Part shown: one piece after another, positions 7,422 through 28,056 of the stretch
How positions within the stretch are numbered: the first letter of the stretch is position 1
Layout of the letters: each line of letters opens with the position of its first letter
NCBI GenBank assembly: GCA_902586695.1
Contig: CACIIL010000010.1
Span: 1 to 39,446 of the forward strand
DNA from: an uncultured Alphaproteobacteria bacterium
GTDB lineage: Bacteria > Pseudomonadota > Alphaproteobacteria > HIMB59 > GCA-002718135
Direction: 5' to 3'
Length of the DNA stretch: 39,446 nucleotides
The notes under the pieces: generated by a model
What the model was told of the DNA's origin: nothing
Seen by the model: only the letters and a program-made list of their open reading frames with translations
The model's database searches: none
Made by a program: the position numbers and the translations under genes

Positions 7422-8033
7422 ATGATTAAAATATCAAAATATTCTTTAATCATTGCTTTATTTGCAATAATTTATAGTAGTGTATCTATGGCACTTGAAG
7501 AACCAAAATATCTAATACTCAAATCAAATAAAAACTATGAAATTAGACAATATAATGACCGTTTAGCAGTTGAAGTAGAATATTCCAATGAAGATTCGGG
7601 ATTTAGATATTTATTTAATTATATTTCTGGTGAAAATACAAAATCAGAAAAAGTTAGTATGACTGTACCTGTGACTCAATCTGTTAAGATTAATATGACA
7701 GCACCTGTTACTCAATCTACAAAAAACGGGAAAATGGTGATGCAGTTTTTTTTACCATCAAAATTTACATTAGATACTGCGCCAAAACCAACGAATAATA
7801 GAGTAAACCTAGTAGTTTTAGATGGTAAAATTTATGCAGTAATTAAATATTCTGGAAGAGTAACAAAAAAAAATTTTCAAAAACATTATGAAAAATTAAA
7901 AGAATATTTAATAAAGGATAAAATCAATTTTATAGAACCGGCAATTAGAGCAACATTTAATGGGCCATTTACATTGCCTATTTTTCGCAGAAATGAAGTA
8001 ATGATGGAAATAAAATATAATGAGAGAAGATAG
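7422..8033 (+). CDS. SOUL family heme-binding protein with signal peptide
   Basis: 203 aa; N-terminal signal-like stretch, YEIRQYNDRLAVEVEYS, two MT(V/A)PVTQS motifs, typical of SOUL proteins. Confidence 0.9.
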   Translation: MIKISKYSLIIALFAIIYSSVSMALEEPKYLILKSNKNYEIRQYNDRLAVEVEYSNEDSGFRYLFNYISGENTKSEKVSMTVPVTQSVKINMTAPVTQSTKNGKMVMQFFLPSKFTLDTAPKPTNNRVNLVVLDGKIYAVIKYSGRVTKKNFQKHYEKLKEYLIKDKINFIEPAIRATFNGPFTLPIFRRNEVMMEIKYNERR

Positions 8034-11151: not shown

Positions 11152-11995
11152 TATATTTATTTTTTTTTTAATTTTTTTCTTTTTTAATCCTTTAAAAGCA
11201 GAATTAATTTTTGAAAATGAATTTCCCAATAATATTCAAGGAATTTGGAGTCCAGATTGTGAATCGGAACTTCAAGTACATATTATTGGTAAAAATAGTA
11301 GTCTTTGGATTGATGAAGATTATGTGGGTTTGAATATGTCTAAAACTTCTGAAGTTCAGGGTTGGACTGCATACAAATGGGGTGAATTAGATGGTTCTTA
11401 TTATTATTTTTTAAAAAAAAATACTCAAAATCAATTAATGGAACTATCTCCTCCTGATGAATGGGATGGAATAGACTACTCTTTTCTGAATTCTAATGAT
11501 TTTAGTGTTTATGAAGAATGTAAATTTGTTCCAAGTATATATCAAATTATTTATGGTGAAATTGTTAGTTTGATGAATTCAAATCTTATTGAAACTTGCA
11601 CCAATGATTCAAAGCAACAAGAATGTATAAATGAAACATTTGATTTTTTAGATGTATCATCAGATGAAGAATTATCCATTGCGGAACTTACACGAGCTGC
11701 AAGAATTTTAATTTATTTTACATTTATAGATAAAAGAGTTGGAGAGGACAGAGATATAGGGTTTGTAACTTACACAACTACTTCATTATTTTTTCCTGCA
11801 ATTTCTAAAATATTAATTGGTAATTATGATTATGATAACTCAAATACATTATCTTTGAAAGAAATATACACTGACAGAGTAGCAACACTTGATTATCAAA
11901 ATTTATTTAAAGATAATATTAAAGGTTTAGATCCAAGCGAATTAAAAAGATTAATTGAAAATCTTGATTTTTTAAAGTCTATTTTAATAAATTAA
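11141..11995 (+). CDS. Secreted/periplasmic EF-hand-like protein
   Basis: 284 aa; N-terminal signal peptide; two EF-hand-like loops (DVSSDEELSIAEL and DYDNSNTLSLKEI). Start overlaps the lipoprotein gene end. Confidence 0.7.
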   Translation: MKVNIFIFFLIFFFFNPLKAELIFENEFPNNIQGIWSPDCESELQVHIIGKNSSLWIDEDYVGLNMSKTSEVQGWTAYKWGELDGSYYYFLKKNTQNQLMELSPPDEWDGIDYSFLNSNDFSVYEECKFVPSIYQIIYGEIVSLMNSNLIETCTNDSKQQECINETFDFLDVSSDEELSIAELTRAARILIYFTFIDKRVGEDRDIGFVTYTTTSLFFPAISKILIGNYDYDNSNTLSLKEIYTDRVATLDYQNLFKDNIKGLDPSELKRLIENLDFLKSILIN

Positions 11996-13100
11996 CTAAA
12001 TATTTACCTATTAAATTTTTATTTAAAGTAAATCCAATTCCAGGTAATTGATTAAGATTAAGTATGCCATTAGATATGCTTAATTTTTCTTTAAATAATG
12101 AGTCTCTTAATGGGTTAGGGTTTAAATCAGTTTCTAATAGTCCATTTTTATTAATAGCACTCATTAAATGAGCAGAAGTTATCATACCTACAGCGCTACC
12201 TAAAAAATGTAAATATAATTTATTATTTATATTTGAATTAAAATTTTTAACAATAAAAGACAAACCACCGTATTTAGTAATATCAGGTTGAATAAATTTT
12301 ATTTTTCTATTTTTTAAAAAATTAATAAATTTTTTTTCATTTGAAATATTTTCTCCAAGTGCAATAGAAATTTTACTTGAATTTATCAATTCTAAATAAT
12401 CACGATCTTTTGTTAAAGCAGAAACTGGTTCTTCAATCCAATATATTGGAAATTTTTGTAAAATTTTTAAATATTTTTTTGCATTATTTATATCCCAACC
12501 TTGATTAACATCAAACATAAGGCTTTCATTTTTATTACAAAAAAGAATTACTTTTTTTATTAAATTTAGGTCTAAGTTATTATTAAAACCTATTTTAATT
12601 TTAAATGATTTAATTCCTAATTTCCTAGCCTTTTCTATACTTTTTGTAGCTTCATCTGGATTTATACCACTAGCATATAAACCAATTTTATTTGTAGCTT
12701 TGTCGTTAATTAATTTATTCAAAGGTTTTTTTTTATTTTTTGAAAATAAATCCCATAAAGCGCAATTGAATCCTGCCAATATTGAATCATAAGAACCAAG
12801 ATCATTTGATTGAACAAATATAGACTTTAGATCTAAAAAAATTTTATAAATATCAGAAGGATCATAAATATTAGTATTCTTAATCTTATTTACGAATATA
12901 TTTTTTAATAAATTAAATTTATATAAAGCACCATCACTAGGAAAATTACACCAAATTTCACCTAATCCTATGTTATTATATTTATCTTTTAGCTCTATTA
13001 TTAATGCAGGTCTTTTTTTCATCACTCCAAAAGAGGTATAAACATATTTCTTTAGTTTATATTCAAGATGATAAATTTTGATTTTATTTATTCTAATCAA
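11979..13100 (-). CDS. Mandelate racemase/muconate lactonizing enzyme (enolase superfamily), candidate acid-sugar dehydratase or epimerase
   Basis: 373 aa; KxK (FKIKIG), metal ligands MFDVNQG / WIEEPV / ALGENI, QPDITKYGG and LHFLGSAVG (MR-type His). Confidence 0.9.
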   Translation of the reverse strand: MIRINKIKIYHLEYKLKKYVYTSFGVMKKRPALIIELKDKYNNIGLGEIWCNFPSDGALYKFNLLKNIFVNKIKNTNIYDPSDIYKIFLDLKSIFVQSNDLGSYDSILAGFNCALWDLFSKNKKKPLNKLINDKATNKIGLYASGINPDEATKSIEKARKLGIKSFKIKIGFNNNLDLNLIKKVILFCNKNESLMFDVNQGWDINNAKKYLKILQKFPIYWIEEPVSALTKDRDYLELINSSKISIALGENISNEKKFINFLKNRKIKFIQPDITKYGGLSFIVKNFNSNINNKLYLHFLGSAVGMITSAHLMSAINKNGLLETDLNPNPLRDSLFKEKLSISNGILNLNQLPGIGFTLNKNLIGKYLVNLLK

Positions 13101-13980
13101 GATCGTTAATTTCTTTTATGTAATTAAACATAGAGGTCCAATCTAAATCTTTATAAGAAGTTTTATCTGCATCTTCGTACACTTTTAAAGCAGTTTTTCC
13201 TGTATTTAAGTTAATTCCATCCAATGAACCTTGTTCAAGTGCGAGTTTAAGATCTTTTAATGCTAGGCTATTTTTAAATCCTGGAGAAACATCATTTTTA
13301 AGAACTTTTATTGGATAACTAACATTTAAATGTCCTTTACCTGCTGCTGTAGTTGTAAGTAGATTTATTGCTAAATCTAAATCTATGCCAGATTTTTTAA
13401 CTAATGATAGAGTTTCAGCAGTAACTATATTTGAAACTATTGACATATAATTATTGATAATTTTCATCTTGCTTCCTGAGCCACTTTTACCACAATACAC
13501 AACATCACTACCCATAGTTTCAAGTAATGGCTTTATAATTTCAAACTTATCTTTATCACCTCCCACTAAAATTAATAGAGTTCCATCAATTGCATTACTT
13601 ACTAATCGAGCTACTGGAGCATCATACATAAGAATATTATGCTTTTTAAATTCTTTGTTTATATCAATAGAATCAGTAGGTAAAATTGTACTCATATCAA
13701 TATAAATATAATCTTTCATATCCTGTTTTAACAAACCATTATCACTTAAACATACTTCTTTAACATTATTTCCATTTGGTAACATTGTGATTATGTAATC
13801 TCTATCATTTAAAAGATCTTTTAATGAAGTGCAATGAATGGCTCCTAAGTCTGTTAATTTAGTTATATTATCATCTTGAACATATGGATCATAAAAATTT
13901 AAATCATTACCTTTAGAAATTATGTTTGTTGCCATGGGACATCCCATTGTTCCAACTCCAATAAAACCAACTTTACTCAT
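13093..13980 (-). CDS. Beta-hydroxyacid dehydrogenase, YihU (sulfolactaldehyde reductase)-like
   Basis: 295 aa; GFIGVGTMGCPMATNI Rossmann, IITMLPNG, IDMSTILP, DAPVARLVSNAIDGTLLILVGG, KMKIINNYMSIVSN, TAAGKGHLNVSYPIKVLKNDVSPGFKNSLALKDLKLALE. These align segment by segment with recalled E. coli YihU. Confidence 0.88.
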   Translation of the reverse strand: MSKVGFIGVGTMGCPMATNIISKGNDLNFYDPYVQDDNITKLTDLGAIHCTSLKDLLNDRDYIITMLPNGNNVKEVCLSDNGLLKQDMKDYIYIDMSTILPTDSIDINKEFKKHNILMYDAPVARLVSNAIDGTLLILVGGDKDKFEIIKPLLETMGSDVVYCGKSGSGSKMKIINNYMSIVSNIVTAETLSLVKKSGIDLDLAINLLTTTAAGKGHLNVSYPIKVLKNDVSPGFKNSLALKDLKLALEQGSLDGINLNTGKTALKVYEDADKTSYKDLDWTSMFNYIKEINDLD

Positions 13981-13995: not shown

Positions 13996-14922
13996 TTAAA
14001 TTACAGAAATTAATTTAGTTATTCTATTTTTACCTTCATTTTTAATCCAGTTAATAAACATTTCCTGATCTGAATTTGCAAAAATATCAATTGCATCATA
14101 CCAAATTGCCCTTCCACATAAAAAACCCAAAAAGTTTATACCAGAAGACTTGGCTAAAGACAGTGATTTGTAAAAATTATTAAAATTCATACCGGCACTT
14201 AGAAAAACGAATGGAGTGGAGAAGTCCATAAATGTATCTTTTAATAATTTTTCACAATCTTTAAATGAATACCGATTGTAAGAATCATCGTTATCAAAAC
14301 CTTTTACTTCAAATTCATTAAATGGAAATTCAATTTTAATAATATCTATAGAATATTTTAGTTTAGAAAATTCTTTGTAAAAATAAGATACATGTTGAGG
14401 TTTTCTTTTATAAAATTCTTCAATATTGTAACCTAATGAATCATCAAAATATAAAAGTGGTTCAAATAAAAAAGGTAAGTTGTAATTCTTGCAAATTTCA
14501 CTAACTTTTATAATTAATAATTTCTTTTTTTCATTAATAAATCTGTTTGAGTCTGGATTATAATACATAAAAAACTTTAAAGCTCCGAAATTATTCAAAA
14601 GATGATCAAAATTTTTAGTTGGAAGTTTTGTAATTTTTTCTAGATTTTCTATATTGTAGGCATCATCTTCATATGCTATTATTTTTTGAGTTTCTAAGTT
14701 TTTATAAATAGTATCATTTATATAAGTATCATAATCAAATAAAATAGAAGATACATAATCGGATAAATTACTTATAATATATTTTTTAAAATTAAAATAA
14801 TCTTCAGTTAAAAAATTCTTTTTTTTATTTTTTATTAAATTTTTAAGACTTGTTCCTTGATCTATAGCTAAAGCACAAAACTTATTATTTTTAAGTAAAT
14901 GTTCAATATTCTTATTTTTCAT
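13996..14922 (-). CDS. Class I aldolase of the LacD (tagatose-1,6-bisphosphate)/YihT family
   Basis: FCALAIDQGTSLKNLI, IDIIKIEFPFN (candidate Schiff-base Lys), TPFVFLSAGMNFNNFYKSLSLAKSSGINFLGFLCGRAIWYDAI. ATG at 14922 overlaps the DhaK stop as ATGA, so it is preferred over the ORF-track start at 14958. Confidence 0.88.
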   Translation of the reverse strand: MKNKNIEHLLKNNKFCALAIDQGTSLKNLIKNKKKNFLTEDYFNFKKYIISNLSDYVSSILFDYDTYINDTIYKNLETQKIIAYEDDAYNIENLEKITKLPTKNFDHLLNNFGALKFFMYYNPDSNRFINEKKKLLIIKVSEICKNYNLPFLFEPLLYFDDSLGYNIEEFYKRKPQHVSYFYKEFSKLKYSIDIIKIEFPFNEFEVKGFDNDDSYNRYSFKDCEKLLKDTFMDFSTPFVFLSAGMNFNNFYKSLSLAKSSGINFLGFLCGRAIWYDAIDIFANSDQEMFINWIKNEGKNRITKLISVI

Positions 14923-15917
14923 AAATGAAAATAAGGTGCAGAAGTTTTTTGAGACCAAAGATTTCTCATTTCTTCTGTTGACTTTAAAAGTGAAATAGAA
15001 AAACCCGCACTTTCTTGAGTTGTAATGTACTCATTTACTAAAGGTTTATAGGTTTTGATATTATATTTTGTTAAATATTCTTCTAAATCATTATAAATTA
15101 TTAATAATTCCATTAATGTTGTTGCGCCAGAACCATTTACAAATGGTATTAAAATATCACCATTAGAATATGAAAAGTCATCAAATATTTTATCTAACAT
15201 TGTTGAGACAATTTTTCTTGAATTATCAATTTTTTGTCTACCATAACCAGATTCTCCATGCACTCCCATTCCAATAAAAATTTCATCGTCGGCAATTTCA
15301 AAAATTTTTTTTCCACTAATTGGTGATACTCCTGGACTGATAGCTACAGATAAGGTTCTAGTATTATCTCGTACTATTTCTCCCATCCTTATTAAAGATT
15401 CAAGGTCTCCACTATTTTCAGATAGGGCGCCCAAAATCTTATATATAAAAGTGGTTCCTGCCCCTCCTCTTCTTTCATTTTCTTTACCCTTTGGGGCAGA
15501 GGCAATGTCATCATACATTATTAAAGCTTTAGCATTGATATTTTCATCTTCTGCTAATTCAATAGCCATTTCACCATTCATCACATCACCTGCGTGATTA
15601 GAAATTAATAAAAGAATTCCTGGATGTGATTTAAATAATTTAATTCCTTCAAGAATTAAATCACCGGATGGTGCTGAAAAAATATCACCTACCACATTTG
15701 CATCCAATAACCCTTCACCAATCCAACCTAAAGCAATTGGTTCATGTCCAGAACCATTTCCAATTAAAAGAGGAATTTTACTTACATTTTTTGGATTTTT
15801 TCTAATTATTAATCTTTTATTTGGCTCAAAAAATTTAACTTTGTCATAATGGGCTTTGACATAACCATTTAGCATATCATTAACTATGTTTTCTTTTAAA
15901 TTAATTATTTTTTTCAT
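14919..15917 (-). CDS. DhaK-type kinase subunit (dihydroxyacetone/ketose kinase, covalent His)
   Basis: 332 aa; GNGSGHEPIALGWIGEGLLDANVVGDIFSAPS, RRGGAGTTFIYKILGA, GMGVHGESG (His motif), FVNGSGATTLMELL. Confidence 0.93.
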   Translation of the reverse strand: MKKIINLKENIVNDMLNGYVKAHYDKVKFFEPNKRLIIRKNPKNVSKIPLLIGNGSGHEPIALGWIGEGLLDANVVGDIFSAPSGDLILEGIKLFKSHPGILLLISNHAGDVMNGEMAIELAEDENINAKALIMYDDIASAPKGKENERRGGAGTTFIYKILGALSENSGDLESLIRMGEIVRDNTRTLSVAISPGVSPISGKKIFEIADDEIFIGMGVHGESGYGRQKIDNSRKIVSTMLDKIFDDFSYSNGDILIPFVNGSGATTLMELLIIYNDLEEYLTKYNIKTYKPLVNEYITTQESAGFSISLLKSTEEMRNLWSQKTSAPYFHL

Positions 15918-16512
15918 TAAATATTTCTCTAAAAAATTCTTTTAAAATTATTGAGGTGGAAAAGGCTCCAGGATCAATTACACCTACTCCCTTTGTTTCA
16001 AGAAATTTTGCCCTGCCAACTTTTGCTTCCATATTCTTTGTATTTTGAAGTGATTTATCAATTGAAGAAAAAATCTCATCAATTAAAAAATCATCTTTAT
16101 TATTTATCTTATCATGTAAAGGATAATAAATATCTAAAATACTTTTATCCCCAATATTAACTTTTCCTCTTTTTTTAATTTTTTCAATAGTTGATGAAAA
16201 AATATTTAAAACAGATTTTTGAGTATTATTAATATTCAAATTAGCAACTTCTTTAATAAAGATTGTCATTAGAATACCTGATGCTCCACCCATAGATATT
16301 CTCATTAACTTAGAAACTTCGGACATAAAATCGACTACATTATTTATATCAATATTCTCGAAACTATTTACAACTTTGTCAAGACCTCTTAAAATAGTAG
16401 ATCCATGATCACCATCTCCAATTTGTTGGTCTAAATTATCAATTTCGTTGTATTTATCTTTAATTACTAAATATGATCTGTGTAACCAATTTTTATGAAA
16501 ATCAATCATCAT
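15901..16512 (-). CDS. DhaL-type kinase subunit (ATP-binding)
   Basis: 203 aa; LDQQIGDGDHGSTILRGLDKV and MGGASGILMTIF motifs; overlaps dhaK and the upstream gene. Confidence 0.92.
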   Translation of the reverse strand: MMIDFHKNWLHRSYLVIKDKYNEIDNLDQQIGDGDHGSTILRGLDKVVNSFENIDINNVVDFMSEVSKLMRISMGGASGILMTIFIKEVANLNINNTQKSVLNIFSSTIEKIKKRGKVNIGDKSILDIYYPLHDKINNKDDFLIDEIFSSIDKSLQNTKNMEAKVGRAKFLETKGVGVIDPGAFSTSIILKEFFREIFNEKNN

Positions 16513-17348
16513 AAATATTGAATTAAATAAGAATAAGATTTTTTAATCGCCTCATAAGGATCTTTCTCAATATTTCTCCAAGTAAATAAGTCTTTACTAG
16601 TCGGGTTATTAGCCTGAATAAACATCTCTAATGTAATATTATTAGAATAATTTATTTCTTTTAAAGTTTTAAAAATATTTTCAAAATCAATACTACCTGA
16701 ACCAGGAATGCCTCGATCATTTTCAGCAATATGGATATGAAATATCTTTTCATTTGCTTTTCTAATTGAAGAAACAATATTTTTTTCTTCAATATTCATA
16801 TGGTAAAGATCTAATAATAAACCAACTTTAAGGTGATTTACAAGAGAGCAAAGATAAAGACCTTCTTCTACAGTATTAATAAAATCTGTCTCATATCTAT
16901 TTAATGGCTCTATTCCTAATTTAATATTTTTTTCATCTAATAAATTGATAATTTTTTTTATACTATCAGCTGAGTTATGAAATTTTCTTTCTTTATTAAA
17001 ACCGCGATCATTACTAACTCCCCATGCACAATGAATTACTCCTGTTAGTAATTTAGAACCCATTAAAGAGGTAATTTCAATAGCTTCTTTTAATTTATCA
17101 ATACCTTTTAAACGAATTTCTAAATCTTCACTTGTAATATCTTCTTCATTAGACAATCCAGTAGTACAAGTAATCTCAATATTTAAATCTTTAGCATATT
17201 TTCCTATTTCTTTTGCTTTATAAAAATCTTGTCCAAGTAAAGATACTTCAACTGATTTATAACCAGCTTCACTGCATTTTTTAATATATGGCTTTATATC
17301 TTCTGACCATTCTTTAACAAATATAGCTGAGTGGACTCCTAATTTCAT
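16509..17348 (-). CDS. Xylose-isomerase-like TIM barrel sugar isomerase/epimerase (hydroxypyruvate isomerase/tagatose 3-epimerase type)
   Basis: 279 aa; GYKSVEVSLLGQ, LGIEPLNRYETDFINTVEEGL, LLLDLYHMNIEE, FHIHIAENDRGIPGSGSIDFENIF. Confidence 0.9.
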   Translation of the reverse strand: MKLGVHSAIFVKEWSEDIKPYIKKCSEAGYKSVEVSLLGQDFYKAKEIGKYAKDLNIEITCTTGLSNEEDITSEDLEIRLKGIDKLKEAIEITSLMGSKLLTGVIHCAWGVSNDRGFNKERKFHNSADSIKKIINLLDEKNIKLGIEPLNRYETDFINTVEEGLYLCSLVNHLKVGLLLDLYHMNIEEKNIVSSIRKANEKIFHIHIAENDRGIPGSGSIDFENIFKTLKEINYSNNITLEMFIQANNPTSKDLFTWRNIEKDPYEAIKKSYSYLIQYL

Positions 17349-18454
17349 TTTAACAAATCTATTTTTTTAAATAGATCATGAAAAATTTCATCTCTATTAA
17401 CACCATAAGCCTCTCTCATTAAATGAGCATTATCTTGTTTAACCCAATAGAGATTATCATCTAATAAAGAAGATTGAATAATAGTTGATGGAACCCAAGA
17501 AGGATTTATTAACCAAGCGATATTAATAACATCCCATATAACCCATGTTCTCCATGTTTGATCAATAATACCTCTTTGCTTATGAAGAGGATTATTAGTA
17601 TATAAATAATATAAATAATTTCCAATTTCGCCTTTTCCTCTTACAAATTCTTTCATATCAGGAAGAGATAAAGTTAGTTGTGCTCCTACATTAAAGCCAG
17701 GAAGATATACATTTGCAACTCCACATTCAAAAAGTAATTGTGATGCATAAACATCTTGAACTAAATTCAATGAATTTTTATTATGATTAAAACTATATGT
17801 AGGAAATCCAGAAGTCCAAACAACAACCATATTTCTAATAATATCAGGCTTAAGAAGTAATGCAGAAGCTATATTTGTAAGGCAGCCTATTGCTGAAATA
17901 TAAATTTTTTCATTAGGGTATTTAAGACACATATCAATTATAAATTGACTAGATTCACTTTCTATAGGTTTATCAAAACTTTCAAGGTACTTTGGTGAAC
18001 CTCTAAATACTTTTCCATTATAATTCATATCTAGTTTATTAAAAATATTTATAATTTCTTGATAACTTTTTTCTACCCCCTCTTCTGGAGTATCGAAGTA
18101 TATTTCATTTGGATGTTTTCTAGATTCTAATAATCCATTTACCCAATTATAATAATCAGAAACTAATTCTTTGTTTGAATCATCAATAATTTTTTTATTA
18201 GTTATTATATCATATGCTTGTTTTAATTCTTCTTTATGATGTTGAAATGAATAAGGTTCAGCAGTAACTCCTAATAATTCTATTTTTTCTTTAGAAAGTA
18301 ATGCCCATGTTAAAGCAAATTGATCATCAATTTCATTAGCAGTATCAGTATCCAGTATCATTTTGTTTTTTCCAATCGGTAAAGATAAATTATATATAAG
18401 CTCTTGATTACTCAATTTAGGAAATTTGTTGATTATATGTTTAGGTATAGACAT
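17345..18454 (-). CDS. Nucleoside hydrolase-fold (IUNH-like) protein, divergent
   Basis: 369 aa; MILDTDTANEIDDQFALTWALLS (variant of DTDxGxDDAxAL), IYISAIGCLTNIASALLLKPDI, LLFECGVANVYLPGFNVGAQL. Confidence 0.82.
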   Translation of the reverse strand: MSIPKHIINKFPKLSNQELIYNLSLPIGKNKMILDTDTANEIDDQFALTWALLSKEKIELLGVTAEPYSFQHHKEELKQAYDIITNKKIIDDSNKELVSDYYNWVNGLLESRKHPNEIYFDTPEEGVEKSYQEIINIFNKLDMNYNGKVFRGSPKYLESFDKPIESESSQFIIDMCLKYPNEKIYISAIGCLTNIASALLLKPDIIRNMVVVWTSGFPTYSFNHNKNSLNLVQDVYASQLLFECGVANVYLPGFNVGAQLTLSLPDMKEFVRGKGEIGNYLYYLYTNNPLHKQRGIIDQTWRTWVIWDVINIAWLINPSWVPSTIIQSSLLDDNLYWVKQDNAHLMREAYGVNRDEIFHDLFKKIDLLK

Positions 18455-18482: not shown

Positions 18483-19490
18483 TTAAAAATTTTTTGCTAC
18501 ATTTATAATTTTTTCTGCAGATGGAATATAATAATCTTCCATTGGAGGACTAAAAGGAACTGGGGTATGAGGTGCTGTTATTTTGGCAACTGGAGACTTT
18601 AAATCAGAAAAGCATTTTTCAGATATTAACGAAGTAATTTCTGAAGCTAAAGAACATTTTGGATTTGATTCATCAACAACTATTACTTTTCCAGTTTTTT
18701 TAACAGATTCGAATATTAACTCTTCATCTAGTGGTGAATAAGTTCTTGGATCAATAATTTCACAATTTATAGAATCTTCAGCTAATTTTTTTGCAGCTTC
18801 TTCAGCAAATAAATTCATTCTCTGAATTGCTATAATAGTTATATCATTTCCTGATTTTCTAATTTTACCTTTACCAAGTGGTATAGGTTTTAAATCATCT
18901 GGAACTTCACATTTAGTCATATACAATCTTTTGTGTTCCATAAAAATTACAGGATCGTCATCTTGAATAGAAGCCAAAAGAAGTCCTTTCGCATCATAAG
19001 CATCATAAGGAGCTACTACTTTTAAACCAGGTATATGTGTGTACAAACTATATAGAGTTTGAGAATGCTCACTACCTGCTCTAAATCCAGCCCCTACAAC
19101 AGTTCGGACTACCATTGGAACTTTTTGCTTACCTCCAAACATATATCTTACTTTAGCAGCTTGATTCATCATTTGATCGAAACAAACTCCTGCAAAGTCA
19201 ACATACATTAATTCTACAATAGGTCTTAGACCAGTCATAGCAGCTCCAACTGCAGCACCAAAAAAACCAGCTTCTGCAATTGTAGTATCTCTTACTCTTT
19301 CAGCTCCAAATTTTGTGAACAATCCTTGTGTAACACCAAATGGTCCTCCCCAAGCATCTTGAGTTCCTTGATATTGCTCTCTTCCTTTACCACCGGCAAT
19401 ATCTTCTCCCATTAAAATTACATTTTTATCATTTTCAAAAGATTGAACTAAAGCATCATTAATTGCTTCTTTAACTGTCTTTATTGGCAT
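18483..19490 (-). CDS. TPP-dependent 2-oxoacid/acetoin dehydrogenase E1 component beta subunit
   Basis: 335 aa; VILMGEDIAGGKGREQYQGTQDAWGGPFGVTQGLFTKFGAERVRDTTIAEAGFFGAAVGAAMTGLRPIVELMYVDF; VIVVDESNPKCSLASEI. Confidence 0.93.
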   Translation of the reverse strand: MPIKTVKEAINDALVQSFENDKNVILMGEDIAGGKGREQYQGTQDAWGGPFGVTQGLFTKFGAERVRDTTIAEAGFFGAAVGAAMTGLRPIVELMYVDFAGVCFDQMMNQAAKVRYMFGGKQKVPMVVRTVVGAGFRAGSEHSQTLYSLYTHIPGLKVVAPYDAYDAKGLLLASIQDDDPVIFMEHKRLYMTKCEVPDDLKPIPLGKGKIRKSGNDITIIAIQRMNLFAEEAAKKLAEDSINCEIIDPRTYSPLDEELIFESVKKTGKVIVVDESNPKCSLASEITSLISEKCFSDLKSPVAKITAPHTPVPFSPPMEDYYIPSAEKIINVAKNF

Positions 19491-20462
19491 TTAAATATTT
19501 TCCTTTGGGTAACTTACATAAACTTCTTTAAGTGCATCTTCAGGATCTGGCCAAGGTTGAGTCTCAGCATATTTAAAAGCTTCATTAACTTCATTTAATG
19601 CTATGTTTTTTATTTCTTCTAATTTGTCTGCATTTAAACCATGGTTAATCGAATTTTCTATAGCTAATTTTATTGGATCATTATTTTTAGCTTCTTCTAT
19701 TTCTTCTTTAGGTTGATATAATTGTGTATCACCCTCATATTGTCCAGAGAAACGATAATTTTTAAATTCTAAAAAAATTGGGATTTCATTATTTTTTGAT
19801 TCAATAATTGCTTCATTTGTAATTTTGTAAACTTCAAAAACATCATTTCCATTTCCTTGATATGATTTCATATCGTAAGCTTTTGAAATGTCAGATAATT
19901 CTTTGGTGTTTAAATGCCAATCAGTAGCAGTTGCTTCTGCATAGCCATTATTTTCACAAACAAATAACATTGGAATATTCCACAACTGAGCTAAACCTGC
20001 TGCTTCATGAAATGCTCCATTATGGATTGCTCCATCACCAAAAAAGGAAACTGACATTTTTTTTCCATTATTTATTTTTTCTTGCAAAGCTGCACCTAAA
20101 ACAACAGGTGGGCCAGCAGCAACAATTCCAAATGATCCTAACATACCTCTATCAAAGTCACTGATATGCATGCTGCCTCCTCTACCTTTACATATACCAG
20201 TTTTTCTTCCATAAATTTCTGAAGTAATTTTTTTTAAATCACAATCTTTCGCAATAGCATGACCATGATTGCGGTATGTGCTAGAAATCCAATCATCATT
20301 ATTTAAAGCTGCCATTACTCCAACACAAATTGCTTCAGACCCAATGCAAGTATGAAGATAACCAGGTACAGTCTTTTCTTTTGCTATTTTTTTAATACGT
20401 TCTTCAAAAAATCTAATTGTAAATAGTTTCTTATAGATCCAATTAAGTTTTTTTTTATCCAT
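19491..20462 (-). CDS. TPP-dependent 2-oxoacid/acetoin dehydrogenase E1 component alpha subunit
   Basis: 323 aa; TIRFFEERI, STYRNHGHAIAKD, GRGGSMHISDF, FFGDGAIHNGAFHEAAGLAQLWNIPMLFVCENNGYAEAT (TPP motif). Confidence 0.93.
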   Translation of the reverse strand: MDKKKLNWIYKKLFTIRFFEERIKKIAKEKTVPGYLHTCIGSEAICVGVMAALNNDDWISSTYRNHGHAIAKDCDLKKITSEIYGRKTGICKGRGGSMHISDFDRGMLGSFGIVAAGPPVVLGAALQEKINNGKKMSVSFFGDGAIHNGAFHEAAGLAQLWNIPMLFVCENNGYAEATATDWHLNTKELSDISKAYDMKSYQGNGNDVFEVYKITNEAIIESKNNEIPIFLEFKNYRFSGQYEGDTQLYQPKEEIEEAKNNDPIKLAIENSINHGLNADKLEEIKNIALNEVNEAFKYAETQPWPDPEDALKEVYVSYPKENI

Positions 20463-20602: not shown

Positions 20603-22054
20603 ATGAAGAAAACATTAACAATAGGTTATGCGGCAACTGCAATTAGTCCTTATTATTCTGAAGAACAACAAGTTAGAAAAAAATCTGAAGAACACTTAAA
20701 AATAATATTAAAAAATTTTGATGTAGAATTAATGTCATTTCAAAAAACAATTTTTTCAAAAGAAGATTCAATAGAAGCTGGAAAATTTTTTAAAAATAAA
20801 ATTGATTTTTTACTTTTACAAACAAGTTCCTGCAGTGCAGGAGAGCAACTATATCCATTATGTGATATTGTAAATAAAATGGGTTTATGGGCTGTACCTG
20901 ATAATGAAAAAGAGGGAGATGTTAAATTGCATTCTTTAGTATCAGTTAGTCATTATTTAGGTATTATAAAAAAAATTCTTTATGAAAAAAAAATTAAAAC
21001 TAAATGGTTTTATAATTATGGAAACACAAATGAATTTAAAAATAAATTTCTAATAACAATAAAATCTTTAATTGCCCAAAAAAAACTAAGTCAGTCTAAG
21101 ATAGGCTTTATTGGAGGTATTTCACCAGGATTTGATAATATGATTGTCGATAAAGAAAAAATTAAAAAAAATATTGGTTCAAAAATAGAAGAGGCTACAA
21201 TAAAAGAATTAATTGACAAAGCTAAAAATTTTAATCAAACAAAAATTGATAATGAAATTAAAAAAATTAAAAATGCAGCATCAAAAATTGAAGTTTCTAA
21301 TGAAGATTCATTTAATAGAGTAACAAGAGTATATTTTGCTTTAAAACAAATGAAAGAAGAAAATAATTGGGATGCTTTAGCAGTTCAATGCTGGTCTCAA
21401 TTTCAAGAATTATATGATATTGCTCCATGCATGGCTTATGGATGGATGGGTAGTGAGGACGGTGTAGCAGTTTCTTGTGAAGGAGATGTGCAAGGAGCAC
21501 TTAGTATGCTTTTACTAAATTATATTGAAGGTTCTAAAAAATCTTCTACACTTCTTGATTTAGCAACTTTTGATACTGATGCAAATGCTGTATTAATGTG
21601 GCATTGTGGTGTATCTCCTAGACATTTTGCTAATAAAGATGGAATTAAATGGGTGGATCATAGTACTCTTGGAAGAAAAACTGATAAAAAGTACGGTATA
21701 GCTGGAGATCAAGTATTTAAATCTCAATCCTCAACTACTACATATCTTGGAAATAATGGAGAAAGATTATTAATATTAAATTCAGAAATTTTTAATCATA
21801 CAAACAAAGGTTATGATGGAACTAGAGGATGGTTCAAGGAAACAAAATTAAACAGAAAAAAAATTTCAGCAGAAAACCTAATAAATACTCTAAATATTAT
21901 TGGTCATGAACATCATTATGCTGTAGGTCAAGGAGATCAAAGTAAAGAATTGATAGAATTTGCAGCTTGGAATGATTTAAAGCTTGTAGATGAGATTCCT
22001 TTGGTAGATTATATTTCACCAAAGGATAACGAATCAAATAATTATATTATTTGA
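20603..22054 (+). CDS. L-fucose/L-arabinose isomerase-like protein
   Basis: 483 aa; FLLLQTSSCSAGEQLYPLCD, LAVQCWSQFQELYDIAPCMAYGWMGSEDGVAVSCEGDVQGALSMLLL, VLMWHCGVSPRHFA, GDQSKELIEFAAWNDLKL. Confidence 0.9.
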   Translation: MKKTLTIGYAATAISPYYSEEQQVRKKSEEHLKIILKNFDVELMSFQKTIFSKEDSIEAGKFFKNKIDFLLLQTSSCSAGEQLYPLCDIVNKMGLWAVPDNEKEGDVKLHSLVSVSHYLGIIKKILYEKKIKTKWFYNYGNTNEFKNKFLITIKSLIAQKKLSQSKIGFIGGISPGFDNMIVDKEKIKKNIGSKIEEATIKELIDKAKNFNQTKIDNEIKKIKNAASKIEVSNEDSFNRVTRVYFALKQMKEENNWDALAVQCWSQFQELYDIAPCMAYGWMGSEDGVAVSCEGDVQGALSMLLLNYIEGSKKSSTLLDLATFDTDANAVLMWHCGVSPRHFANKDGIKWVDHSTLGRKTDKKYGIAGDQVFKSQSSTTTYLGNNGERLLILNSEIFNHTNKGYDGTRGWFKETKLNRKKISAENLINTLNIIGHEHHYAVGQGDQSKELIEFAAWNDLKLVDEIPLVDYISPKDNESNNYII

Positions 22055-22073: not shown

Positions 22074-23318
22074 ATGAAACTTAAAATTATTACTTTTACT
22101 ATAATCAGTTTACTTTTTTCAAAATTAGTTACTGCAGAAACTGCTCCTGGATTTAGTTCTTGGGATGAAGTTATAAAAGCAGCTGATGGTGGTCAAGTAA
22201 ATGTTTATATGTGGGGTGGTTCAGATGCAATTAATGGATTTGTTGATGATTTTTATGGAGTACCCTTAAAAGAAAAATATAATATTACACTTAATAGAGT
22301 GCCGTTAAAAGGTACTGTTGATGCTGTTAACCAAGTATTAAGTGAAAAAGAAGCTGGTGTAACTGGTGATGGAGGAAGTATAGACTTGATATGGATCAAT
22401 GGTGAAAACTTTTGGACACTCAAACAAGCTAATTTGCTTTATGGTCCTTTTGCTGCTGGTTTACCAAATAGTGAATTTGTTGCATGGGATAACCCTGCAG
22501 TTAATTTAGATTTTGGAAGACCTGTCGATGGAATGGAAAGTCCATGGTCTAGTGCTCAATTTCACTTCATGTATGATTCAGCAAGAAGTAATTATAATGA
22601 CATGCCAAGAAGCTATGCTGAACTTAGTGATTGGATTTCATCAAATCCAGGAAGATTTACTTACATAAGACCAGGTAAAGGTGGTTTTGTAGGTACTCGC
22701 TTTGTTAAACAAATTTTCTTTGAGTTAAGTGGCGGGCAGGAACAATGGGTTGGACCATTTAATCAAGATTTATATGATAAATGGGCACCTAAAGTTTGGG
22801 AACTATTAAACTCATGGGAAAATGATTTATGGAGAGGTGGAGAAACTTATCCAAAAGATAATGCAGAAATGCATAGTCTATTTGCTAATGGTGAAGTTGA
22901 TTTAGACTTTACTCAATCACCAAGAGGTGCAGGTCCAACAAATACAGCTGGAACCACTCCTCCCACTTCAAGAGCTTTTGCATTTTATGAAAATATGATT
23001 GGAGACTTTAATTATTGGGCAATTCCATACAATGCTCCTAATAAGGCTGCTGCTCTAGTATATGCTAATTTAGTTCTAGAACCTGAATTACAAGCTGCAC
23101 AAGTTCAACCTGCTAATGGTTTTTGTTGTGGATGGGGTATTAGCACAGCTAAAGTAACGGATGCAGCTGGTAAAGCCGCAATAGCTGATGCTCAAAATAA
23201 TCTAGGTGATGCCGCAGAAGATCAAAACATTTTAGCGAAAGCACTTGTTTCAGACATTGCTGCAGAATATCAAGATTTAATTGAAGCAGATTGGGAAGCA
23301 AACGTACTTCTTAAATAA
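22074..23318 (+). CDS. ABC transporter substrate-binding protein, YnjB-like family
   Basis: 414 aa with signal peptide; WDEVIKAADGGQVNVYMWGGSDAINGFVDD, GGSIDLIWINGENFWTLKQANLLYG, ESPWSSAQFHFMYD, FYENMIGDFNYWAIPYNAPNKAAALVYANLVLEPELQA correspond to E. coli YnjB features. GGAGGA RBS upstream. Confidence 0.88.
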   Translation: MKLKIITFTIISLLFSKLVTAETAPGFSSWDEVIKAADGGQVNVYMWGGSDAINGFVDDFYGVPLKEKYNITLNRVPLKGTVDAVNQVLSEKEAGVTGDGGSIDLIWINGENFWTLKQANLLYGPFAAGLPNSEFVAWDNPAVNLDFGRPVDGMESPWSSAQFHFMYDSARSNYNDMPRSYAELSDWISSNPGRFTYIRPGKGGFVGTRFVKQIFFELSGGQEQWVGPFNQDLYDKWAPKVWELLNSWENDLWRGGETYPKDNAEMHSLFANGEVDLDFTQSPRGAGPTNTAGTTPPTSRAFAFYENMIGDFNYWAIPYNAPNKAAALVYANLVLEPELQAAQVQPANGFCCGWGISTAKVTDAAGKAAIADAQNNLGDAAEDQNILAKALVSDIAAEYQDLIEADWEANVLLK

Positions 23319-23326
23319 ATTTTAAT

Positions 23327-24202
23327 ATGGGCGGGGAAAGATTAAAAATTATATTATCTTTAACCCCGCCTCTTTTAATTATAATTACTTTATTTTTTGG
23401 CGGAATATTTTACGGTTTTTTGCAAAGTCTTGGATATCAACCAGCTATAGGAAAATATGATATTAATTTTTCAGCTTATTATAATGTTATGTTTTCTGAG
23501 CGATATTCTAAACTTTTCTGGACTGGTTTAGGGCTTAATCTGTGGGTTAGTTTTGCTAGTACTTTTTTAGCAGCTGTATTTGCACTATTTGGTGCACTTG
23601 CAATAAGAAAAACTTTTTTTGCTAAAACTGTTTGTAACTTTATTTACTCTCTAAATTTACCAATGCCCCACTTAGTTGTAGCAGTTGGCATGATTTTTGT
23701 TTTTTCACAGAGTGGATTATTAGCTCGATTTGCTTCTCAACTAGGTTTAATAAATAGTCCTGGTGATTTTCCTGTTTTAGTAAGAGATAAATATGGTTTT
23801 GGAATAATTTTAGCATACATATGGAAAGAAGCTGCATTTTTCTTTATTATATTAATGTCTGTTCTTCAATCATTAGGAGAAAATTTTGAAGAACTTGCTC
23901 AGAGTTTAGGGGCAAATAGATGGCAAAGATTTCGTTATGTAATTTTACCACTTGTAATGCCTAATTTGTTTTCTGCATCTATAATTGTATTTGCATTTAG
24001 TTTTGGAGCTTACGAAGTTCCTGCATTATTGGGAGTTATTTATCCTCAAATGTTACCAGTTATGGCATTTGAATTTTTTTTAAATCCTGATTTAAATGCA
24101 AGAAGTGAGGGTATGGCATTAAGCATAATAATAGCACTTATAGTTATGATCTTAGTTGTATTTTACTTTTGGTTAACTCAAGCTAAAATTAGGAAAGACT
24201 AA
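23327..24202 (+). CDS. ABC transporter permease (YnjC-like N-half)
   Basis: 291 aa; EAA motif NFEELAQSLGANRWQRFRYVILPLV; multiple TM helices. Confidence 0.92.
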   Translation: MGGERLKIILSLTPPLLIIITLFFGGIFYGFLQSLGYQPAIGKYDINFSAYYNVMFSERYSKLFWTGLGLNLWVSFASTFLAAVFALFGALAIRKTFFAKTVCNFIYSLNLPMPHLVVAVGMIFVFSQSGLLARFASQLGLINSPGDFPVLVRDKYGFGIILAYIWKEAAFFFIILMSVLQSLGENFEELAQSLGANRWQRFRYVILPLVMPNLFSASIIVFAFSFGAYEVPALLGVIYPQMLPVMAFEFFLNPDLNARSEGMALSIIIALIVMILVVFYFWLTQAKIRKD

Positions 24203-25065
24203 TGAATAATAATTTAAAGAAAATTAATGTTTATGCAATTTATTTAGGTGCTTTAATATTGATCTTACCACTTATTGCTTTTTTTATAAATGCATTTTCT
24301 TTTCGTTGGTTCTATCCTCAAATTATACCAAAAGAATTAAGTTTGCAGGCTTGGGTAAGATTAAAACTAATTCCTAAGCCTGGACAAAGATCTATAGAGG
24401 GGTTTTTAGATTTATGGACAAGTAATCCTGCTGTAATTAAAGCTTTAATGAATAGTTTAACTATAGGTATTCTAGTAACTATAGTATCTATTATTATAGC
24501 ATTGCCAGCTGCTAGGGTTTTGGGATTACTTAATTTTCGTTTTAAAAAATTAATTATATTTATAATGGTGTCACCTACTATTTTACCACCTATAGCCTTT
24601 GTTCTTGGTTTAAATATTAATTTTATTTCCCTTGGTTTTTCTGGAAGTTTTTTTGGAGTTTGTTTAGTTCATTTAGTTCCAATAATGCCCTATGTAGTTT
24701 TAACTATGACAGGTATTTTTGCAAACTATAATCCAGATTTTGAACATCAGGCAAGAACTCTTGGTGCAAATAAAACAAGAACTTTTTTTCTTATAACTTT
24801 ACCAGCAATAGCTCCTGGCATGGTAGTTGCAGCGTTATTTGCTTTTCTTGTATCTTGGAGTCAATATTTATTAACTTTTTTAATTGGAGCAGGAAAAGTA
24901 ATGACTTTACCTTTACTTGTATTTTCTACAGCATCTTCAGGTAATCCTGCATTAACTGCTGCAATTTCAATAATATTTATATTTCCAGCAATACTGATAT
25001 TATTTTTTACTTCAAAATTTGTTTCAGGTGAATCAGGTGCAACAAGTGGATTTGGGAAAATATGA
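24202..25065 (+). CDS. ABC transporter permease
   Basis: 287 aa; EAA-like DFEHQARTLGANKTRTFFLITLPAIAPG; overlaps its neighbours. Confidence 0.92.
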   Translation: MNNNLKKINVYAIYLGALILILPLIAFFINAFSFRWFYPQIIPKELSLQAWVRLKLIPKPGQRSIEGFLDLWTSNPAVIKALMNSLTIGILVTIVSIIIALPAARVLGLLNFRFKKLIIFIMVSPTILPPIAFVLGLNINFISLGFSGSFFGVCLVHLVPIMPYVVLTMTGIFANYNPDFEHQARTLGANKTRTFFLITLPAIAPGMVVAALFAFLVSWSQYLLTFLIGAGKVMTLPLLVFSTASSGNPALTAAISIIFIFPAILILFFTSKFVSGESGATSGFGKI

Positions 25066-26117
25066 GTGATTTAAAAATTATAAATTTAGTAAAAAATTTC
25101 GTTGGTATGGATAGACCTGCTGTTAACAATGTAAATTTAAAAATAAATAGTGGTGAACTTGTAGCATTTTTAGGACCTTCAGGATGTGGTAAAACTACAA
25201 TTTTAAAGATGATTACTGGATTATTTGCACCTGATAATGGTGATATTGTTCTTGATAATAAATCATTATTACCAATACCAACTGAAAACAGAGGTGTTGT
25301 AATGGTATTTCAAAACTATCTTTTATTCCCATACATGAATGTAAATGAAAATGTTGGATTTGCACTCAAAATGAAAGGAATAGATAAAAATGTTATTGAA
25401 AAAAAAGTAAGAGAGATGTTAGATCTAGTGAAACTTCCTGATATAGGATTCAGAAAACCAAAACAATTATCAGGTGGCCAACAACAAAGAGTTGCTTTAG
25501 CTAGAGCTTTGATAGCTAGTCCTCGATTACTTTTATTAGATGAGCCATTAAGTAATCTTGATGCACATTTAAGAGATGAAATGAGAGATTTAATAGTAAC
25601 AATACAAAAAAAATTAAATGTAACAACTATATTTGTAACTCATGATCAAGAAGAAGCTGTTTTATTAGCTGATAAAATAGCTTTAATTTTTGATGGGGAA
25701 TTACAGAACTATACCTCACCTAAAAATTATTATGAGCAACCAAAAAATATAAAAGCTGCTAAATTTTTTGGTGGAGTTAATTTTATTAAATCTAAAAAAA
25801 TAAATAATGAGTTTATATCAGATATTGGCAAAATAAATTATGTAGGAGAAAATATTAATGATTTAAATGATGAAATTAATATAACTATTAGACCTGAAAA
25901 TATAAAATTATCTAAAACAAATGATTTCGATCATAATTCTTTTAAAGGAAATATTAAATCAATTATTTTTTCAGGCACTCATACAAGATATAAAATTATT
26001 ATTAATAATTTAGAACTAGAATGCTCATTACAATCATTAGGAATTAAGAATATAAATCAAGGTGACGAAATTTTTGTTCATTTACCAAAAGATAAAATAT
26101 GGGGAATGAATGACTAA
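25062..26117 (+). CDS. ABC transporter ATP-binding protein (MalK/PotA-like architecture)
   Basis: 351 aa; Walker A GPSGCGKTT, signature LSGGQQQRVALARAL, Walker B LLLLDEPLSNLDAHLRDEM, TOBE-like C-terminal region. Confidence 0.95.
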   Translation: MSDLKIINLVKNFVGMDRPAVNNVNLKINSGELVAFLGPSGCGKTTILKMITGLFAPDNGDIVLDNKSLLPIPTENRGVVMVFQNYLLFPYMNVNENVGFALKMKGIDKNVIEKKVREMLDLVKLPDIGFRKPKQLSGGQQQRVALARALIASPRLLLLDEPLSNLDAHLRDEMRDLIVTIQKKLNVTTIFVTHDQEEAVLLADKIALIFDGELQNYTSPKNYYEQPKNIKAAKFFGGVNFIKSKKINNEFISDIGKINYVGENINDLNDEINITIRPENIKLSKTNDFDHNSFKGNIKSIIFSGTHTRYKIIINNLELECSLQSLGIKNINQGDEIFVHLPKDKIWGMND

Positions 26118-28056
26118 AAATATTTCTTCAATATCTTTTTCTAAAGATAAAATACTAACAGAAATATCGGAACATATGTTTGGTACAAATCTTGAACATA
26201 TTGGTGAGGCAATTTATAGAAACGGAATTTGGGCAGAAATAGTTAAAAATAGAAAATTTTGTGGACCTGATAAACTTGTTTGGAATAATGGATTAGAACA
26301 TGATCATTTAGATTTTGGAATTGTCCAACCTTGGAAAGGACTTAATGCTTCAGCAAAACACGTTATGTATGCTCATTCTAATTCAGAATATATTGTTAAA
26401 GGTGAAGAAATAATAAGTAGATATGGAAGTGGTAAACAATCTCAACAAATAACTATAAGAGAAAAAAGTAAAACTAAAAGAGGGATAGAACAACAATTAA
26501 AATTGATTGATTCCAAAGATTATTATGAATTTAACATTATAACTAAAGGCGATAATCAAAAAGTATTTATTGAAGTTGGAGAAATAAAATTCTCATTTAT
26601 TGCAAAAAAAAAATGGACTAAAAATATTAAGAGATTCAAATTTAAAAAATATAATAAATTAAAAAAACTTAAAATTTCCATTCTGTCAGGTAACATTTAC
26701 ATAGCTAATTGTTCCTTAATGCCAAAAAATACAATTTTTGGATTTAGAAAAGATATAACTAATATGATTAAAGAATGGACACCGAGTTATATACGATGGC
26801 CCGGAGGTAATTTTTTATCTGGTTACGATTGGAAAAACGGAATTGGCAATAGGGATTTTCGTTTACCATACTATGATCATGCTTGGTATCAATGGGAAGA
26901 TAATGATGTTGGTACTGATGAATTTATGAAATGGTGCGAATATATAGGAAGTGAACCTATGATTACTGTTAACACTGGTGATGGATTAATCAAGGATGCC
27001 CAAAATTGGATTGAATATATTACAGGATCTGAATCAACAAAATTTGGAAAACTGAGAATTAAAAATGGAAGAATAAAACCTTATAAACTTAAAACAGTAT
27101 TTATAGGTAATGAAATGTTTGGCGGTTGGCAAATAGGTCATACTGACCCAATCACATATGCAAATAAATATGACAAATTTGTAAAAGGTATAAAAAAAAT
27201 TAATAATAAATTACGGTTCATTGCTGTAGGTGCATGCTCTGATCACTTTGGTCATTGGAATGAACAAATTTTAAAAAATATAAAAGAAAAAATTGATGAA
27301 ATAAGTGTTCATTATTATTCTATTAGAACTGAAAAAGATAAAAAACATCCAAATTATAAATCTCGTTATTTACCGACTGTTGCTGCTTCAACTGAAGTTA
27401 GACTAATGTTAGACAGAACTATTAAAGAAATAAAAAAAAATACAAAAAAAGATATAAAAATAGCTTTTGATGAATGGAATACTTATGTTGAGGCACATTC
27501 GCCCTATTTTATTGAAAATTATAATATAGCTGATGCAATTTATGCAGCCTCTTTATTACATGCATGTATAAATAGAGGTGATATAATTCGTAATACAGGA
27601 ATATATCATCTAATCAATGTAATGGGAAATTATAGAATAGAAGGAAAAAACATATGGAAAACTCCAACTACTTTAGTTCTTGAATTATTTACGAAATTTC
27701 ACAAAGGTTCGATATTAAAATCTAAAGTTATTAGTGAAAAATTTTCTTCACCTAGATTAGGTAAGCAACCAACTTACAATAACAATAAATATTTAGATGC
27801 TTCAGTAACTTATAAAGATAATCAGATTTGTTTATCTGTTGTCAATAAATCTGAAAAGCATAGTATAAAATTTAAAAATATTAATTTTAATAAAATTAAG
27901 GAAACTTTTACTATAAATGGTCAAAATAAAACTGACTTAAATACTTATAGAAATAATACAAAAGTGAAAATAAAGAAAAATATTTTAAATAAAGGAAAAG
28001 ATTATATTATATTGCCTCCACATTCAATAAATGTCATTTTACTTGATTATAATTAA
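26110..28056 (+). CDS. Alpha-L-arabinofuranosidase-like (GH51), cytosolic
   Basis: 648 aa, no signal peptide; YIRWPGGNFLSGYDWKNGIGNRDFR, FIGNEMFGGWQIGH (acid/base Glu), IAFDEWNTYVEAHSPYF (nucleophile Glu). Confidence 0.88.
   Translation: MTKNISSISFSKDKILTEISEHMFGTNLEHIGEAIYRNGIWAEIVKNRKFCGPDKLVWNNGLEHDHLDFGIVQPWKGLNASAKHVMYAHSNSEYIVKGEEIISRYGSGKQSQQITIREKSKTKRGIEQQLKLIDSKDYYEFNIITKGDNQKVFIEVGEIKFSFIAKKKWTKNIKRFKFKKYNKLKKLKISILSGNIYIANCSLMPKNTIFGFRKDITNMIKEWTPSYIRWPGGNFLSGYDWKNGIGNRDFRLPYYDHAWYQWEDNDVGTDEFMKWCEYIGSEPMITVNTGDGLIKDAQNWIEYITGSESTKFGKLRIKNGRIKPYKLKTVFIGNEMFGGWQIGHTDPITYANKYDKFVKGIKKINNKLRFIAVGACSDHFGHWNEQILKNIKEKIDEISVHYYSIRTEKDKKHPNYKSRYLPTVAASTEVRLMLDRTIKEIKKNTKKDIKIAFDEWNTYVEAHSPYFIENYNIADAIYAASLLHACINRGDIIRNTGIYHLINVMGNYRIEGKNIWKTPTTLVLELFTKFHKGSILKSKVISEKFSSPRLGKQPTYNNNKYLDASVTYKDNQICLSVVNKSEKHSIKFKNINFNKIKETFTINGQNKTDLNTYRNNTKVKIKKNILNKGKDYIILPPHSINVILLDYN

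Follow-up and report, generated by a model that had tools for sequence, protein, structure and literature searches.

The window, i.e., the whole stretch of 39,446 nucleotides that was analyzed, contains an intact open reading frame with an ATG start that encodes a protein of 295 amino acids, here termed RED. RED is a beta-hydroxyacid dehydrogenase in which both domains (PF03446 and PF14833) were found, and its gene is part of a 15-gene operon (Table 1). The gene order is ENOL-RED-ALD-DHAK-DHAL-EPI-NH-E1b-E1a on one strand and ISO-SBP-PERM1-PERM2-ATP-GH51 on the other.

Table 1. Genes of the operon and codons of the four RED residues compared with YihU (positions in the window)
Feature	Position	Strand	Basis
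ENOL, mandelate-racemase-type enolase superfamily enzyme	11979..13100	-	closest solved relative 3ddm; Lys-x-Lys, Asp, Glu, Glu, His motifs
RED, YihU-like NAD(H)-dependent beta-hydroxyacid dehydrogenase (predicted)	13093..13980	-	domain, family, alignment and tree evidence
Ser180 codon (YihU Ser178, informative residue)	13441..13443	-	alignment, codon count
Asn176 codon (YihU Asn174)	13453..13455	-	alignment, codon count
Lys173 codon (YihU Lys171, catalytic Lys of superfamily)	13462..13464	-	alignment, codon count
Arg125 codon (YihU Arg123)	13606..13608	-	alignment, codon count
ALD, LacD/DeoC-family class I aldolase	13996..14958	-	PRK12858 225 bits, cut-off 184; Schiff-base Lys aligned with LacD
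DHAK, dihydroxyacetone-kinase-like DhaK subunit	14919..15917	-	GSGHEP, HAGDV, VHGE motifs
DHAL, DhaL subunit	15901..16512	-	above NCBIfam cut-off
EPI, D-psicose/tagatose 3-epimerase-like	16509..17348	-	family match
NH, inosine/uridine nucleoside-hydrolase-like	17345..18454	-	family match
E1b, two-subunit TPP enzyme beta (PDH E1-like)	18483..19490	-	family match
E1a, two-subunit TPP enzyme alpha (PDH E1-like)	19491..20462	-	family match
ISO, FucI/AraA-superfamily isomerase	20603..22054	+	best NCBIfam match SftI, 142 bits, cut-off 700; E293, D319, H437 conserved
SBP, ABC substrate-binding protein	22074..23318	+	PRK11622/YnjB type, above cut-off
PERM1, ABC permease	23327..24202	+	family match
PERM2, ABC permease	24202..25065	+	family match
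ATP, ABC ATPase	25062..26117	+	family match
GH51, alpha-L-arabinofuranosidase-like glycoside hydrolase	26110..28056	+	family match

Among solved structures, RED is most similar to E. coli YihU (PDB 6sm7; phmmer E 2.5e-57, 198 bits), followed by HIBADH (143 bits) and GarR (141 bits). The earlier note had paired Arg125, Lys173, Asn176 and Ser180 of RED with Arg123, Lys171, Asn174 and Ser178 of YihU; the phmmer alignment to 6sm7 reproduced all four pairs at the codons that had been assigned. The NNYMS and TAAGKGH blocks, which start at residues 176 and 211 of RED, are identical in the two proteins, as had likewise been claimed, and the numbering offset of two results from a two-residue insertion after Asp31. 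In the YihU structure work, Arg, Asn and Ser reportedly hold the sulfonate and Lys is said to be catalytic. In 47 relatives of RED, R125, K173 and N176 are invariant and S180 is at least 90% conserved. Asp31, located after the second Rossmann strand, is invariant in these relatives as well. An Asp of this kind is NAD(H)-binding in Rossmann folds, and Asp31 would fit NAD rather than NADP.

The top curated family of RED is sulfolactaldehyde reductase (NF012005) with 270.4 bits, which is under the NCBIfam equivalog cut-off of 348. RED scores 205 bits against the GarR family, below the GarR/GlxR cut-offs, 193 bits against HIBADH (cut-off 291.6) and 124 bits against the LtnD/YgbJ L-threonate dehydrogenase family (cut-off 350). 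An AlphaFold model of RED (pLDDT 94.6) was compared with solved structures. YihU 6sm7 ranked first by E-value, but with a TM of 0.69 and an rmsd of 14.8, whereas GarR and HIBADH gave TM values of 0.91-0.92. The fold comparison thus does not separate substrates and was dropped as a discriminator. The rmsd of the model (m876647800349) is about 15 on the 6sm7/6smy chains and about 2 on GarR and HIBADH, so the domains are arranged differently in the YihU crystal chains.

The residues were then compared across the superfamily. GarR, GlxR and HIBADH retain the Lys and the Asn, as the earlier note had cautioned for other beta-hydroxyacid dehydrogenases; they carry Gly at the Arg position and Val or Leu at the Ser position, and YgbJ/LtnD has only the Lys of the four. 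A Ser-Gly-Gly motif occupies the site of the YihU and RED Arg in GarR, GlxR, LtnD and HIBADH. A class-wide sample of 385 same-class genomes gave 29 homologues, of which 25 contain the Arg and two the Ser (YihU 178). The Arg marks a broad clade and is therefore weak evidence when taken alone; it was ruled out as a sole diagnostic, since a broad alphaproteobacterial clade has Arg together with Ala, Val or Ile at 178. The sulfonate-cluster genes searched for were present in none of eight neighborhoods of such proteins, and in the four of these that were inspected at the level of single genes the context seems unrelated. Because the Arg is common, the Ser is rare and the eight neighborhoods of Arg proteins with Ala, Val or Ile showed none of these sulfonate-cluster genes, Ser180 and not Arg125 provides most of the specificity signal.

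In a tree of beta-hydroxyacid dehydrogenases with 68 rows, all Arg proteins form one clade (support 100/99), with GarR, GlxR, YgbJ/LtnD and HIBADH outside. A position of RED within the GarR/GlxR, LtnD or HIBADH clade, which the earlier note had named as speaking against its proposal, was thus not found; clade and site residues both exclude RED from these groups. The RED clade comprises HIMB59 and one marine gammaproteobacterial genome (100/100) on a long separate stem. Inside the Arg clade it forms a polytomy with the clade of YihU from yih clusters, without a supported join; forcing all Ser-178 rows into one clade was not rejected (p-AU 0.085). Identity between RED and YihU is 36%, the family score of 270 bits falls short of the 348 required and RED sits on its own long branch, so that, as judged from sequence, RED is YihU-like and not a close or proven YihU orthologue. 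On balance, we lean toward RED being a YihU/DhpA-type oxidoreductase that depends on NAD(H) and would interconvert 3-sulfolactaldehyde (SLA) and 2,3-dihydroxypropanesulfonate (DHPS).

The operon partners of RED give a mixed picture. ISO matches SftI (sulfoquinovose isomerase) with 142 bits and L-arabinose isomerase with 23 bits; Glu293, Asp319 and His437 are presumably the metal ligands expected in the FucI/AraA superfamily. ISO is 26% identical to the second SftI-type isomerase of the genome, and no solved structure is sequence-related to either protein. A stop codon seemingly present in ISO of other genomes was ruled out: the frame is open, and the signal was a frame-end effect of the search. 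DhaK retains its substrate-site motifs. ENOL matches 3ddm with 188 bits and retains the KxK, Asp, Glu, Glu and His of the mandelate racemase group. Family searches of the operon detected no sulfoquinovosidase, YihV/SqiK-type kinase, sulfonate-type ABC transporter or sulfite exporter. The operon also failed as a sulfo-EMP cluster, with ISO far below the SftI cut-off and DhaKL in place of a PfkB/PfkA kinase. The hydrolases present are the GH51-like and the nucleoside-hydrolase-like protein. Both are furanoside-type hydrolases, which had suggested a DHPS-riboside (arsenosugar-like) substrate; this idea was dropped, as there is no direct evidence for it.

FucI/AraA-superfamily isomerases, 3-epimerases, DhaKL and LacD-type aldolases act on non-sulfonated sugars in known pathways. 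Together with the arabinofuranosidase-like and nucleoside-hydrolase-like genes, this would agree with a pentose or hexose ketose-1-phosphate pathway starting from an arabinofuranoside or nucleoside, with a neutral aldehyde (glycolaldehyde, glyceraldehyde or lactaldehyde) as the substrate of RED. We regard such a neutral substrate as doubtful, because the Arg/Asn/Ser pocket is conserved, relatives with the same pocket occur in sulfonate contexts that lack these sugar genes, and RED is present alone, without the sugar genes, in four genomes.

The distribution of the operon was determined in related genomes. The source genome (about 1.1 Mb, 75% complete) groups with uncultured marine alphaproteobacterial single cells and MarineAlpha5_Bin5, a group which we take to be HIMB59/AEGEAN-169. 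The RED gene was found in 24 of the 162 genomes of the order, all belonging to one genus, and lies in the same cluster in about 15 of these 24. The operon is conserved in marine HIMB59/AEGEAN-169 and in two gammaproteobacteria. Every copy on a contig that reaches far enough contains RED, located between DHAK/ALD and ENOL; the examined copies with ISO but without RED (G080 and G081) stop at a contig break. In the four genomes that have RED without the sugar genes, the gene occupies one and the same chromosomal site; a divergent GntR/FCD regulator accompanies it in three of them and ENOL in one (L036). Two HIMB59 operons (L039/L107 and L045/L109) are without ALD and without an aldehyde dehydrogenase, and in the gammaproteobacterial operons (L121 and L122) the place of the aldolase, between DHAK and RED, is taken by an SSADH-type aldehyde dehydrogenase. 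RED and ENOL are thus more constant than the aldolase, and the source of the aldehyde is not fixed. Records labeled 'Euryarchaeota archaeon ARS96' and 'Gammaproteobacteria TMED225' (L114 and L120) contain a HIMB59-type operon, with a RED about 65% identical, like the alphaproteobacterial copies; they are probably misbinned contigs.

Scanning about 85,000 species genomes yielded 80 loci with YihU-like genes. Three groups can be told apart: operons of the HIMB59 type, true yih clusters, which occur in Enterobacterales, Vibrio, Pasteurellaceae and Pseudovibrio, and loci without sugar genes. Relatives of RED with both Arg and Ser lie inside the yih sulfoglycolysis clusters of Enterobacterales, Vibrio and Pasteurellaceae. 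In the third group, the YihU-like gene is found together with ENOL (L129, L131, L133, L135, L161, L173, L175, L176 and L177), usually accompanied by an aldehyde dehydrogenase and a LacI or GntR regulator; a sulfonate-type ABC transporter is added in L133, L135, L161, L173 and L176, and SulP in L161 and L173. Arg+Ser relatives in Aquisalimonas and Spiribacter are neighbored by an SsuABC-type transporter, an aldehyde dehydrogenase, ENOL and SulP, those in Rhizobiaceae by the same set without SulP. The substrate-binding protein of this group reaches 156 of the 163.5 bits required for the SsuA family, and SulP is above its cut-off. The YihU-like proteins of L161, L170 and L177 are above the NCBIfam sulfolactaldehyde reductase cut-off. 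On plasmid NT26_p1 of Pseudorhizobium banfieldiae NT-26 (L217), a YihU-like gene occurs with a TRAP transporter, a TauE sulfite exporter and an aldehyde dehydrogenase. The phylogeny, these neighborhoods and the SftI-like isomerase support the proposal of the earlier note that RED could realistically act on a sulfonated or other anionic C3 aldehyde.

Several further genes were seen around YihU-like genes or ENOL. Relatives of NH adjoin the YihU-like gene in L170 and are in the same cluster in L177. An NH search of 398 genomes found two further genomes only, one with a related ABC substrate-binding protein nearby, and a clear pathway around NH was seen in neither. A family of proteins of 746-776 amino acids, DUF3604-like by eye only, adjoins or is near the YihU-like gene in L126, L127, L130, L140, L144, L148 and L172, several of them with TRAP transporters. 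In L217 and L218, two-subunit fumarate-hydratase-like genes occur with sulfite/sulfate exporters and an FAD-binding protein, which may represent a further route of desulfonation.

Alternatively, RED might serve the oxidation of seawater DHPS, its place in a sugar operon being secondary: RED would convert DHPS to SLA, an aldehyde dehydrogenase would form sulfolactate and ENOL would act on the latter. This would fit the stand-alone RED genes beside the GntR/FCD regulator, the sets of RED, aldehyde dehydrogenase and ENOL elsewhere, the aldehyde dehydrogenase adjoining RED in the gammaproteobacterial operons, and the precedent of DhpA, a YihU homologue that oxidizes DHPS to SLA (PMC9594981). However, in the genomes with the operon, every copy that extends to RED has it enclosed between DHAK/ALD and ENOL, and we consider this role improbable. 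It differs from the preferred reading in direction and role and shares its substrate.

The ENOL family was investigated separately. A search started from ENOL found it in 13 of 399 genomes, the source genome included, and showed no YihU-like gene beside the other ENOLs. These adjoin SsuABC-type transporters, an aldehyde dehydrogenase, FAD alcohol oxidases, or a YihV-like kinase and a class I aldolase. Plasmid-encoded ENOLs of Sulfitobacter (L218), Shinella (L222) and Rhizobium (L225) lie beside a TSUP/TauE-type sulfite exporter, and in Shinella ENOL directly follows a kinase, an aldolase, a succinate-semialdehyde-type dehydrogenase and an SDR. Two other ENOLs are found with sugar-acid genes (arabinonate dehydratase and tricarboxylate transporters), and the family is therefore mixed. 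A PF04295 (UxaA/SuyB-type) protein was detected neither in the source genome nor in G002, which is 92% complete and has RED and ENOL; this is compatible with a sulfolactate role of ENOL, but is not proof of it. In the literature searched, no paper connects the enolase superfamily with the breakdown of sulfolactate or sulfoquinovose.

The ENOL data raise the possibility that RED reduces a carboxylated C3/C4 aldehyde (e.g., tartronate semialdehyde) released when a uronate-derived ketose 1-phosphate undergoes aldol cleavage, with Arg125 binding the carboxylate. The best NCBIfam match of ENOL is talarate/galactarate dehydratase (115 bits, cut-off 500), and the relatives among sugar-acid genes point in the same direction. 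In addition, a protein of 855 amino acids without Pfam match, encoded nearby (8020-10587, + strand), shows a weak match to alpha-D-galacturonidase (33 bits, cut-off 1300). However, GarR and GlxR lie outside the Arg clade with Ser-Gly-Gly at the Arg site, ISO matches SftI and not uronate isomerases, and the cluster is without a glycerate kinase or KDG-type aldolase, making a carboxylated substrate unlikely. Taken jointly, a neutral or carboxylated aldehyde is a possibility that we keep as a serious second choice.

A second, paralogous sulfosugar-type cluster of the same genome is located on another contig, outside the window (L089; G000 contig C9:6000-25900). It encodes an SftI-type isomerase (303 bits), a PfkB kinase, a class I aldolase, a mutarotase, a 2-hydroxyacid dehydrogenase and a sulfopyruvate decarboxylase, whose alpha subunit is above the cut-off and whose beta subunit has 220 of 221.5 bits. 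A sugar ABC transporter, a sulfatase and an FGE-like protein are also present. The isomerase, kinase, aldolase and sulfopyruvate decarboxylase genes suggest that the source organism probably metabolizes C3 sulfonates. Next to the sulfatase and FGE-like genes, a protein of 610 amino acids (L089:17605-19434, + strand) has no Pfam or NCBIfam match.

Since RED keeps all four YihU residues, the operon may degrade a sulfonated sugar by an undescribed route. From the observed residues, clade, operon conservation and gene neighborhoods, we infer the substrate, the direction, the order of steps and the role of each neighbor as follows. The ABC transporter and the hydrolases would import and open a glycoside, and the SftI-like isomerase and the 3-epimerase would yield a ketose. 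Its conversion to DHAP and an anionic C3 aldehyde would fall to the class I aldolase and DhaKL, the latter phosphorylating either the intact ketose or, once cleavage has occurred, free dihydroxyacetone. RED would reduce the aldehyde by hydride transfer from NAD(H), with Lys173 as general acid/base and Arg125, Asn176 and Ser180 holding the sulfonate; stand-alone RED would oxidize DHPS, like DhpA. ENOL could act on the derived 2-hydroxyacid (sulfolactate), by alpha-proton abstraction with loss of sulfite or by racemization. The absence of a known sulfoquinovosidase, a YihV-type kinase, a sulfonate-type ABC transporter and a sulfite exporter from the cluster counts against this reading, as do the epimerase and the TPP pair, which it does not explain.

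Such a DhaKL route and a sulfolactate-acting enzyme of the enolase family would both be new. That the operon combines a new route for a sulfosugar or sulfonated glycoside (DhaKL, SftI-like isomerase, 3-epimerase and LacD-type aldolase) with an MR/MLE protein of the 3ddm family representing a new class of enolase-superfamily sulfolactate enzymes is conceivable, though we would not expect it. By removing the alpha-proton and releasing sulfite, an ENOL of this class would form pyruvate, or it would racemize sulfolactate; it would thus substitute for SuyAB or SlcC/ComC.

In the ocean, sulfoquinovose and DHPS serve as major sulfur-carbon currencies, and surface waters commonly contain the abundant, uncultured, open-ocean HIMB59/AEGEAN-169 bacteria. 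Should the operon handle a sulfosugar, the marine sulfosugar/DHPS cycle would gain an abundant clade and a hitherto unknown set of enzymes. The 2023 description of the clade contains no word beginning with 'sulfo' and does not mention DHPS (PMC10308909). For the sulfolactate step, a 2026 review names only SuyAB (PMC12890257); an ENOL that cleaves or racemizes sulfolactate would be a second enzyme type beside it.

Compared with known systems, RED resembles E. coli YihU (PDB 6sm7/6smy/6smz; NF012005) in fold, domains, the Arg/Lys/Asn/Ser set, NNYMS, TAAGKGH and the NAD-type Asp, but differs by an identity of 36%, a score under the cut-off and a separate, well-supported clade. Its operon partners (SftI-like isomerase, DhaKL, LacD-type aldolase and ENOL) are unlike those of YihU. 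GarR/GlxR, LtnD/YgbJ and HIBADH share the beta-hydroxyacid dehydrogenase fold and the catalytic Lys; they have Ser-Gly-Gly in place of the Arg motif, no Ser at 178 and lie outside the Arg clade. ENOL corresponds to PDB 3ddm, a putative mandelate racemase/muconate lactonizing enzyme, in the KxK, D, E, E and H positions (188 bits), and the 3ddm record is without an assigned function. The DHPS dehydrogenase DhpA of Desulfovibrio (PMC9594981), compared by description, is likewise a YihU-type protein accompanied by an aldehyde dehydrogenase, with similar sets in Devosia, Spiribacter and others; its partner is SuyAB, whereas RED neighbors ENOL. With the SqvD/SqiK/SqiA-type system, the operon has in common an SqvD/SftI-like isomerase, a class I aldolase of the YihT family (PF01791) and a YihU-like reductase. 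It differs from that system by a putative DhaKL kinase instead of the PfkB/PfkA type, by having no known sulfoquinovosidase, and by its additional 3-epimerase, TPP enzyme, nucleoside-hydrolase-like protein and ENOL.
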